Shown piece after piece: positions 22,462-45,760 of a stretch of 51,861 nt of DNA (positions are counted from its first letter, which is position 1; the number at the start of each line of letters is the position of its first letter). Origin of the DNA: an uncultured Caryophanales bacterium (GTDB lineage Bacteria > Bacillota_I > Bacilli_A > RFN20 > CAG-826); the NCBI GenBank assembly GCA_947302535.1, contig CAMYVX010000008.1, positions 1 through 51,861 of the forward strand, given 5' to 3'. The notes beneath the pieces are model-generated. The model saw nothing but the letters and a program-made list of their open reading frames with translations, was not told where the DNA came from and did not search any database. Position numbers and translations under genes: made by a program.

Positions 22462-22491
22462 TTGACGCTTTTCTCCGTCTATTTATATAGT
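22462..22491 (+). promoter_or_regulatory. Promoter of the multi-hairpin RNA locus
   Basis: TTGACG (22462-22467), an 18-base spacer and TATAGT (22486-22491) make a good promoter; transcription should start near 22498. The AGGAGG at 22493-22498 would then lie mostly upstream of the transcript, which argues against it serving as a ribosome site. Confidence 0.55.
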
Positions 22492-22497
22492 AGGAGG

Positions 22498-22790
22498 ATT
22501 CTTCATGAAATGATTAATCTTTCCGTGACTTTGGTATATGTGTTTTGCACTTGTAAGTATATGTCAAAGTCAGAAAGGCGGTTGGTCTCTAATGAGAAGG
22601 CGACTTCTCTTAGTGATGAAATTGGTACTAATACTGATATTAGTTCTTTGGACTCTAGCTAGATTCGTCTAATTAGATAAAAAGAGACTCCCTAGATGTA
22701 GGGGAGTCACCAAAACACAATCATATATTACATCACCCATCAGTGGTTTACAAGGCCCAATCGGGTAAAGACACCACTGTTGGTTATTAA
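22498..22790 (+). ncRNA. Candidate ~290-nt structured RNA with five hairpins (unassigned)
   Basis: Five stem-loops follow one another. H1 (22519-22577) is CTTTC/GAAAG, TGACTTTG/CAAAGTCA and ATAT/ATAT. H2 (22589-22613) is CTAA-GAGAAG/CTTCTC-TTAG capped by a GCGA tetraloop of GNRA type. H3 (22627-22644) is ACTAATA-ctga-TATTAGT. H4 (22686-22708) is GACTCCC/GGGAGTC. H5 (22741-22779) is CAGTGGT/ACCACTG with an inner TTAC/GTAA. The density is far above that of other gaps in this window. A 50-codon frame (22510-22662) overlaps H1-H3 but looks incidental. The locus has its own promoter and lies before the rex promoter. No known class could be assigned; it might be a trans-acting RNA or the 5' region of a long rex leader. 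Confidence 0.5.
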
Positions 22791-22813
22791 ATAAAAAATA
22801 TATGTTTCAAGAG

Positions 22814-33147: not shown

Positions 33148-33415
33148 AATATGGTAAATTAGTCCTAAGGCGTTGAAAGAAACAAGTAACGATGAACTTT
33201 AGCCTATAGAGAGTGTTCGGTTGCTGAAAGAACATGACGGGTTCATCGCGAATACATTCTGGAGCTGCTTCTTGAAATCATAGTAGAGAAAGACGGGTAG
33301 GCCCGAGATAGCCCTAGTGTGCAATAGCACACACTAAGGGATAATTCGTGAGAATTGTCTAAATTGAGGTGGTAACACGATAACAAATCGTCCTCAAAAG
33401 AGGGCTTTTTATTTG
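33148..33415 (+). ncRNA. T-box riboswitch of tyrS (Tyr specifier)
   Basis: The leader upstream of tyrS shows the Stem I layout, with specifier loop GCGAATACATTCTGG; the codon TAC at 33253-33255 matches tyrosine. The T-box itself is AGGTGGTAACACG (33366-33378). Its partner CGTCCTC forms either the antiterminator or, with GAGGGC and TTTTT, the terminator near 33392-33411. Uncharged tRNA-Tyr should stabilise the antiterminator and switch on tyrS. A TGG-TAAATT -10 element lies near 33146-33156. Confidence 0.92.
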
Positions 33416-44061: not shown

Positions 44062-45760
44062 TAATAGCTAAAACTCGTTTAATCTCTTTATATAATTCGT
44101 CTGGCAAAGCTTCCGCATTCTTTTCGTCTTTAGCCACCGCTCCAATATAGAATTTAACTTTTGGTTCAGTACCGCTAGGACGAACAGCCACAGTGCATTT
44201 ATTTTCTAAGAATAACTTAACAACATCGGATTTAGGTAAATCGATTTTGCTAATCTTACCGTTATCATTTCTTTCAAGTTTTAAATAATCTTCAACTTTA
44301 TAAATCTTGTGGCCCATTAATTCTGTTAACGGATGATCATGAAGTTCTTTCATAATCTTATTCATATTAGCTTGTCCACTTGGACCTTTAAATTCAATGG
44401 AATAAACCTTATCCGCATGCCAACCAAGTCTTTCGTTTAATTCTTTCCAAGCCACATCCAAGGTTTTGCCTTGTAAATGGTAGAATAAAGCCATTTCCGC
44501 ATAAAGAAGAATAGCTTGGCAACCATCTTTATCACGAGCAAATGGAGCGATTAAAGCACCATAGGATTCTTCATAGCCGAATTCAAATTTTGGTCCACCA
44601 TGTTTTTCATAATAATCAATGCGGTTACCGATAAATTTAAATCCTGTTAAGAATTGTTCGGTTTTCACACCATAATAAGAAGCAACTTCTTCTCCTAAAG
44701 AAGAGGTAACAATTGTGTTATACATAACTCCATCTTTTGAAAGAAGACCAAGTTTCTTTCTTTCAGAAAAAATATAATCAGCAAGTAAGGCTGCGGATTG
44801 ATTACCAGTTAAAGTTTGATAAGATCCATCACTATGTTTATAAGCTAAACCCACGCGGTCTCCATCTGGATCAGTCATCACCACTAAATCAGCATTAATT
44901 TCTTGTGCTAATTTAATTGGCTCAATATAAGATCTTTGATCTTCAGGGTTAGGAGAGAGAGTTCCAGAGAAATCAGGATCAGGATCACATTGACTTAATA
45001 CTGGATAAATCTCATAGCCTAAATCCTTAAAGATTCTCATAGAGTTCACATAACTCGTTCCATGGTTAGGTGTAAATACAATCTTATAACCTTTTTTATC
45101 AAGCTCAGGATGAATTTGAATACTTTCACATAATCTTACATATTCATCATCTACTTCATGAGACAAAACAACATTCTTTCCTTTAATCTTTTCGGGAACA
45201 TAAGTAACATCAAGTTCGTTTGGTAAAAAGGCAACAATATCTAAAAGTCCTTTGATTTTATCAGGGACTAATTGACAACCAGTTTCATCATATACTTTAT
45301 AACCGTTATATTCTTTTGGATTATGGCTAGCGGTAATCATAATGCCCGCGCACGCCTTGAGATAACGAACAGCAAAAGAAAGTTCAGGTGTAGGTCTTAA
45401 TGAATCAAAAATATATGTATTGATACCAAAGTCATTAAGAACTGAGGCACTGAGTAAAGTAAATTCACGCGATTGATGACGGTTATCATGAGAAATGACA
45501 ACACCTTCTTCTTTCGCTTTTGGGAATGTCTTCAATAAATACATAGCAAAGGCAACAGTCACTTTTCTAATAGAATAGACATTAAGTCTATTAGTGCCTG
45601 GCCCTAGCACTCCACGCATCCCCGCTGTACCGAATTCTACATTCTTGAAGAAAGCATCTTCTTTTTCGTCTTGTTTCATATTACGAAGAATCTTTTTGCT
45701 CTCTTCATCAACGACAGGAGAAGTTAGCCAACGTTGATACTCTTTTTCGATATTGTTCAT
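44054..45760 (-). CDS. pgcA: Phosphoglucomutase/phosphomannomutase
   Basis: The 568-residue alpha-D-phosphohexomutase has the active-site serine loop ITASHNPKEYNGYK (near 141-154), the metal loop DPDGDRVGLA (near 298-307), the sugar loop GYEESYGA and the phosphate loop RPSGTEPK near the C-terminus. It interconverts glucose-1- and glucose-6-phosphate, linking glucan use (both GH13 enzymes) with glycolysis and wall precursors. AAGGTG precedes the ATG; the pseudouridine synthase gene ends four bases upstream. Confidence 0.95.
   Translation of the reverse strand: MNNIEKEYQRWLTSPVVDEESKKILRNMKQDEKEDAFFKNVEFGTAGMRGVLGPGTNRLNVYSIRKVTVAFAMYLLKTFPKAKEEGVVISHDNRHQSREFTLLSASVLNDFGINTYIFDSLRPTPELSFAVRYLKACAGIMITASHNPKEYNGYKVYDETGCQLVPDKIKGLLDIVAFLPNELDVTYVPEKIKGKNVVLSHEVDDEYVRLCESIQIHPELDKKGYKIVFTPNHGTSYVNSMRIFKDLGYEIYPVLSQCDPDPDFSGTLSPNPEDQRSYIEPIKLAQEINADLVVMTDPDGDRVGLAYKHSDGSYQTLTGNQSAALLADYIFSERKKLGLLSKDGVMYNTIVTSSLGEEVASYYGVKTEQFLTGFKFIGNRIDYYEKHGGPKFEFGYEESYGALIAPFARDKDGCQAILLYAEMALFYHLQGKTLDVAWKELNERLGWHADKVYSIEFKGPSGQANMNKIMKELHDHPLTELMGHKIYKVEDYLKLERNDNGKISKIDLPKSDVVKLFLENKCTVAVRPSGTEPKVKFYIGAVAKDEKNAEALPDELYKEIKRVLAIND

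Follow-up and report, generated by a model that had tools for sequence, protein, structure and literature searches.

What does a short run of strong hairpins in the genome of an uncultured bacterium encode? The window, as we call the whole stretch of DNA analyzed (51,861 nt), comes from contig CAMYVX010000008.1 of an uncultured Caryophanales bacterium (GCA_947302535.1; CAG-826; genome G000). A sequence-only reading had described the hairpins as an RNA locus with its own promoter. We compared the locus with its copies in the same genome and with homologues in other genomes.

Fold and hairpins of the locus

Strong hairpins lie at the places where that reading had put them. The region 22490–22800 folds at −90.5 kcal/mol, compared with −67.6 ± 4.0 kcal/mol for dinucleotide shuffles (z = −5.8, 0 of 100 shuffles), and comprises hairpins P2–P6 followed by a 3′ hairpin. 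On the plus strand, P2 (22527–22571) is located in the 5′ UTR of the predicted mRNA, and its stem is preserved in copies of divergent sequence. P3 (22594–22609) and P4 (22627–22644) lie within a short ORF for a predicted toxin, and P5 (22654–22677), with a UUCG loop, holds its stop codon. P3 has an invariant stem and a loop, GCGA or GAAA, that is always GNRA. P6 (22686–22708) can be read on both strands, as part of the 3′ UTR of the toxin mRNA on the plus strand and as the stem of a predicted antitoxin terminator on the minus strand. The terminal hairpin of the mRNA (22741–22779, plus strand) features a variable stem that is preserved in most copies. A scan of the locus against Rfam 15 returned nothing at gathering score and nothing at E < 1, in agreement with the previous reading, which could not fit it to tmRNA, RNase P, SRP, 6S, or common riboswitches.

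The promoter proposed earlier, TTGACG-N18-TATAGT (22462–22491, plus strand), is indeed present upstream of the predicted toxin mRNA and scores 10 of 12, but 1.7 equally good matches are expected in the stretch by chance, so that the match proves nothing alone. Its −35 element is not conserved among the copies. The promoter is followed by AGGAGG (22492–22497, plus strand), which is either a Shine–Dalgarno-like box of a leader or the transcript start, and by ATG AAA TGA. Most homologues likewise carry AGGAGG or an equivalent rich in G. Reading the TGA as a sense codon was dropped because the large neighboring ORFs use translation table 11. A 50-codon leader frame (22510–22662, plus strand) is found downstream of the box.

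Copies and homologues

BLAST returned nine matches of the stretch in G000 (1.17 Mb, 40 contigs), seven of them complete over the core and two partial, truncated by contig ends. These are the window copy, two copies on C24 (4943–5277 and the contig start), a tandem pair on C1, one copy at each end of C3, one at an end of C15, and one at the start of C16. The copies are flanked by ordinary chromosomal genes, as judged from Pfam matches in their neighborhoods (flavodoxin-fold reductase, CNNM, PFOR, ABC permease, glycosyltransferase, metalloenzyme, and ABC ATPase), and a DNA search of phage and plasmid records with the element gave no match. At both ends of C3 (L042 and L043), the element is followed by an identical flank (GAATTCTTAAAGTAAATTCCGTTTC...), which probably marks a repeat where the assembly broke.

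Alignment of the seven complete copies shows that the hairpin arms covary, the kind of support that the sequence-only reading had named. In the named structure, 97% of the cells pair, and seven pairs (12 cells) are changed on both sides, a count equaled in 0 of 500 shuffles; on the same seven copies, slid-register controls gave no both-side changes. Two of the pairs changed on both sides are located in P4 and three in P6. One P4 pair varies between A-U, G-U, and G-C, and the outer stem of P6 is variable around a constant loop, UAGAUGUA.

Homologues in other genomes were collected with successive covariance models, R1 (built from the G000 copies), R2, and R3. R1 found two weak full-length matches, both in other genera, and R2 extended the set to eight other genomes of the family and to G250, one genome of a second family. 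By AdhE (81% identity), the closest relatives with a name are MAGs from goat, rumen, and horse feces labeled Erysipelotrichaceae/Bacilli. With R3, the element is present in at least 12 of 224 family genomes including G000 (E ≤ 0.001), i.e. in at least 11 others, which is a lower bound because the first-look filter scored only ∼13 candidates per genome. Several genomes carry many copies: five each in G101 and G147, and in G180 four found by the model plus one tandem copy found by eye. P3–P5 are confined to the G000 copies and gone in distant members. The latter retain P6 and the 3′ tail, along with the small ORF, its AAGGAGG RBS, and an A-run; they also keep the minus-strand promoter, a 5′ segment of CCUUG type, and a leader ATG behind an AGGAGG-type box.

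Several matches were set aside. A BLAST match in G030 (E = 4e-4) lies inside a coding gene, and a model match at window position 44674 (E = 0.04) falls in coding-looking sequence. R3 matches in G433 (three near-identical copies) and G591 are without a toxin-like ORF and were not counted. G433, a genome of the class, consists of one 3.2-Mb contig, and its matching stretches (L149, L151, and L152) have an A-run, a hairpin, and a minus promoter-like layout with no toxin-like ORF adjoining. The exact P6-loop motif matched viral contigs 16 times, never with element flanks and mostly in apparent coding sequence; longer P6–tail patterns were found in neither viral nor genome contigs. Near two G101 modules, Rfam gave sub-threshold matches to an L20 leader (L048, 1815–1934, 39.7 bits) and a T-box (L143, 1819–1966, 60.4 bits). 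The window itself contains a T-box leader at 33164–33398 (RF00230, E = 1e-28).

A conserved hydrophobic ORF

The plus strand contains a predicted toxin ORF of 26 amino acids, MRRRLLLVMKLVLILILVLWTLARFV (22592–22672), and a hydrophobic ORF occupies the same place in nearly all homologues. Its predicted RBS, AGAAAGG (22572–22578, plus strand), is 13 nt from the ATG in the window copy and closer to the start codon in most homologues. The homologous ORFs comprise 19–26 codons, are hydrophobic, precede the A-run, follow an AAGGAGG-type RBS, and mostly end in a charged C terminus (for example METLVYLVIIVVIIMIIVLALTR, MQYLLVLVIILLVICLLVK, and METATILLILFILIITIRRKD). The exception is L146, where the ORF is cut to 13 codons. 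Pfam and NCBIfam profiles gave no match to the peptide.

For 15 close pairs taken together, the toxin frame has a pN/pS of 0.36, versus 0.56 and 1.09 in the other frames, indicating that the predicted toxin ORF is under purifying selection in the homologues. Without the G000 pairs the ratio drops to ∼0.25. Within G000 it is ∼0.86 (summed rows), and the protein signal there is therefore weak; the changes within G000 are conservative (I/V/L/A and R/K). The toxin ORF overlaps the 50-codon frame in a different register, where pN/pS of ∼1.1 rules out the longer frame as the gene. The sequence-only reading was thus right to look past that frame.

In many loci, the leader ATG behind the AGGAGG-type box overlaps the toxin ORF, and the transcript may start at the box. 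In L143 and L145 (both G101), the toxin frame lacks the usual start codon: its first codon past the inner RBS is ATA or ATC. No stop codon separates this frame from the leader ATG, and these two loci may instead be translated from there, as a protein of 38 amino acids.

A predicted antisense RNA on the opposite strand

Opposite the 3′ UTR of the predicted toxin mRNA, the minus strand is predicted to encode an antitoxin RNA of ∼40 nt (22679–22719), which would start near 22718–22719 and end in a U-run at 22683–22679. Its promoter (22725–22753, minus strand) consists of a −35 element TTGTAA (22753–22748), a 17-nt spacer, and a −10 element TAATAT (22730–22725). Of 32 loci, 30 have a minus-strand promoter of the form TTGnnn-N16–18-TAnnnT a short distance behind P6 (2.9 expected from shuffled sequence), and 28 have the stricter −10 TAnnAT (0.7 expected); these loci are related to one another and hence are not independent trials, and the −35 signal partly reflects selection by models R2 and R3, which ended in ...CAAG. 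At P6, one minus-strand terminator was found versus 0.1 expected, with the A-run reading as a U-run on this strand. The predicted antitoxin, with a length of about 38–51 nt across loci, would be antisense to the 3′ UTR of the toxin mRNA and end at P6 and the U-run.

Two observations on individual loci bear mention here. In L047, the first module is followed by a second in tandem, whose toxin ORF is interrupted in frame by a TAG shortly after its start, whereas the antitoxin promoter, with a perfect TATAAT as −10, and the terminator are intact; here the toxin may have decayed with the antitoxin still live. The core of the P6 loop is identical or nearly so among the copies within each of G000, G101, and G147 and differs between genomes, which suggests antitoxin cross-talk or concerted evolution.

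The opposing RNA also bears on whether the locus could be a stand-alone structured non-coding RNA of the plus strand, with the small ORF accidental. The covarying stems (0 of 500 shuffles), the GNRA and UUCG loops, and the weak protein constraint within G000 would all fit such an RNA. However, P3–P5 are lost in distant homologues, where the hydrophobic ORF and its RBS are kept under purifying selection, and the opposing promoter and terminator are conserved. We consider this explanation improbable. The earlier description as an RNA locus therefore holds for the structure and its covariation and not for an RNA standing alone, since a shorter conserved frame for a hydrophobic peptide is present; the prediction places the main regulatory RNA on the strand opposite to the one proposed.

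Long-range pairings in the mRNA

The P6 loop contains GAUGUA (22695–22700, plus strand), the predicted contact site of the antitoxin, which can form a pseudoknot with UACAUC in the 3′ tail of the mRNA (22729–22734, plus strand). UACAUC is identical in sequence to the antitoxin loop, and the tail segment therefore appears to be an antitoxin mimic. The corresponding loop/tail pairs differ in sequence between genomes: GAUGUA/UACAUC in the window, GAUUUAC/GUAAAUC in G101, GCUGUG/CACAGC in G147, and GUGUUA/UAACAC and GUGCUA/UAGCAC in G180. The loop–tail pairing score is 14.4 within a locus versus 8.9 for mixed loci (0 of 10,000 permutations; likewise 0 of 10,000 in a one-per-lineage set). For a wider set of 14 loci, 0 of 20,000 permutations matched, and strong pairings occur in 6 of 14 own versus 2 of 182 cross combinations, with L164 and L165 mis-parsed in this set and pairing over 7 bp when corrected. 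The pairing is absent or weak in L137, L155, L156, and L158.

A second long-range interaction connects the two ends of the mRNA. CUUGUAA in the P2 loop (22550–22556, plus strand) is complementary to UUACAAG in the 3′ hairpin (22748–22754, plus strand), and this 5′–3′ pairing is matched in 0 of 10,000 permutations over 14 loci and in 18 of 10,000 in the one-per-lineage set. Folding predicts ∼10–12 long-range pairs in most mRNAs outside G000 and predicts the pairing weakly for the window copy. Removal of the 3′ tail in folding shifts the predicted exposure of the Shine–Dalgarno sequence both ways across loci. Together, mimic and end pairing would keep the full-length mRNA closed to both the ribosome and the antitoxin until 3′ trimming opens it.

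A candidate type I toxin–antitoxin module

The loop–tail mimic and the antisense position in the 3′ UTR point to a type I module whose antitoxin acts in the 3′ UTR. On the strength of these comparisons, the locus is probably a chromosomal toxin–antitoxin module of type I that belongs to a new family. We infer both transcripts, the 3′ processing, the role of RNase III, and toxicity.

In the working that we propose, the plus strand would give an mRNA for the 26-amino acid peptide with a single membrane span, the predicted toxin, and the minus strand the RNA antisense to the mRNA 3′ UTR, which would consist of little besides hairpin P6 and its U-run. The full-length mRNA would be inert, with its 3′ end paired to the 5′ UTR and with the antitoxin-loop-like 3′ segment covering the P6 loop. 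Trimming of the 3′ end would open both the end pairing and the cover of the loop. The antitoxin could then kiss the freed P6 loop and extend into a duplex that is cleaved by RNase III. Upon a shortfall of antitoxin, the peptide would be made and act on the membrane of its own cell. More tentatively, and with a little less than even confidence, we propose that the toxin mRNA carries a covarying decoy of the antitoxin loop past the target hairpin, which masks the target until 3′ trimming, is coupled to the 5′–3′ lock, and is encoded in the spacer and −35 element of the antitoxin promoter.

Such a family, without an entry in Rfam, Pfam, or NCBIfam, would occupy up to nine chromosomal sites in a 1.17-Mb genome and be shared by several genera of uncultured Bacilli from gut and rumen. 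Its antitoxin would be unusually small (∼40 nt), and its mRNA would act as an RNA switch, joined end to end by one of its segments and carrying a copy of the antitoxin loop in another. With so many copies in a reduced genome, one may ask what purpose chromosomal type I modules serve. No paper in the literature collection searched brings together type I toxins, antisense RNA, and Erysipelotrichaceae.

Relation to par/Fst and to mobile repeats

An assignment to the par/Fst family of Gram-positive bacteria, as one of its divergent members, appears very unlikely. The par locus of Enterococcus pAD1 (fst/RNA I–RNA II) has convergent promoters, a toxin mRNA of ∼230 nt, and an antitoxin of ∼40 nt; its RNAs meet at the antitoxin terminator hairpin, and it encodes a small membrane peptide (PMC7472228). 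Convergent promoters, a predicted antitoxin of ∼40 nt, predicted contact at the terminator loop, a small membrane peptide, and low-GC Gram-positive relatives are shared with the locus described here. In contrast to par, however, the locus lacks direct repeats joining the antitoxin 5′ part or tail to the toxin start (the longest shared word averages 4.2 in own versus 4.1 in cross comparisons, 3129 of 10,000), and it has no bidirectional terminator, as a T-run is found on the minus side of P6 only. The peptides matched neither the Fst PxxxG motif nor a curated Fst profile, nor any Pfam or NCBIfam entry. Instead of ending at a plus-side U-run, the mRNA continues past the hairpin and pairs back onto both hairpin and 5′ UTR.

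Least credible of all is a non-autonomous, MITE-like mobile repeat with the hairpins as transposon ends or repeat structure: the element is indeed multi-copy and dispersed, with copies at contig ends and a tandem pair on C1, but no terminal inverted repeats were seen in the copies read, the copies differ by pair-preserving changes, the homologues are too diverged for recent transposition, and no mobile-element protein was found among the scanned neighbors of copies.

Comparison with known type I systems

Considered as a type I module of its own, the locus shares features with several other systems. The hok/sok system has a leader ORF, mok, and an mRNA whose ends pair. Here, a putative leader ORF may precede or overlap the predicted toxin ORF, and the mRNA ends can likewise pair (weakly in the window copy). 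In hok, the 5′–3′ end pairing acts as a lock that is opened by 3′ trimming (PMC4147584). Unlike in hok/sok, the predicted antitoxin is complementary to the 3′ UTR rather than to the leader, the peptide has 19–26 amino acids and is not Hok, and the RNA fold is a different one without an Rfam match.

The aapA/IsoA systems of Helicobacter also possess a 5′–3′ long-distance interaction in the full-length mRNA that opens upon 3′ trimming, the mRNA 3′ end trapping the Shine–Dalgarno sequence itself (PMC6733600). Several chromosomal copies and the long-distance interaction are common to both. At the present locus, a CAAGG-type segment at the 3′ end would pair with its CCUUG-type counterpart in the 5′ part, and a further 3′ segment would cover the site of antitoxin contact.

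The ibs/sib genes of Escherichia coli are multi-copy, and the locus resembles them in copy number, peptide size, and hydrophobic span. The size of the peptide has a precedent in IbsC, a type I toxin of 19 amino acids (PMC8309996). The Sib antisense RNA covers the whole ibs ORF and its start (PMC4147584). At the present locus, the predicted antisense RNA is instead confined to the 3′ UTR.

In the txpA/RatA and bsrG/SR4 systems of Bacillus, the antitoxin overlaps the 3′ end of the toxin mRNA. The predicted antitoxin resembles these, as well as SR6 of yonT/SR6, in its overlap at that end. We know of no mimic like the P6–tail segment in any of the three. For yonT/SR6, the antitoxin also overlaps the mRNA 3′ end (PMC5848175). 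Toxins of the Bacillus systems are larger (58 amino acids for yonT), as is the SR6 antitoxin (∼100 nt). Overall, the architecture of the locus mixes features of par/fst with features of hok and aapA.
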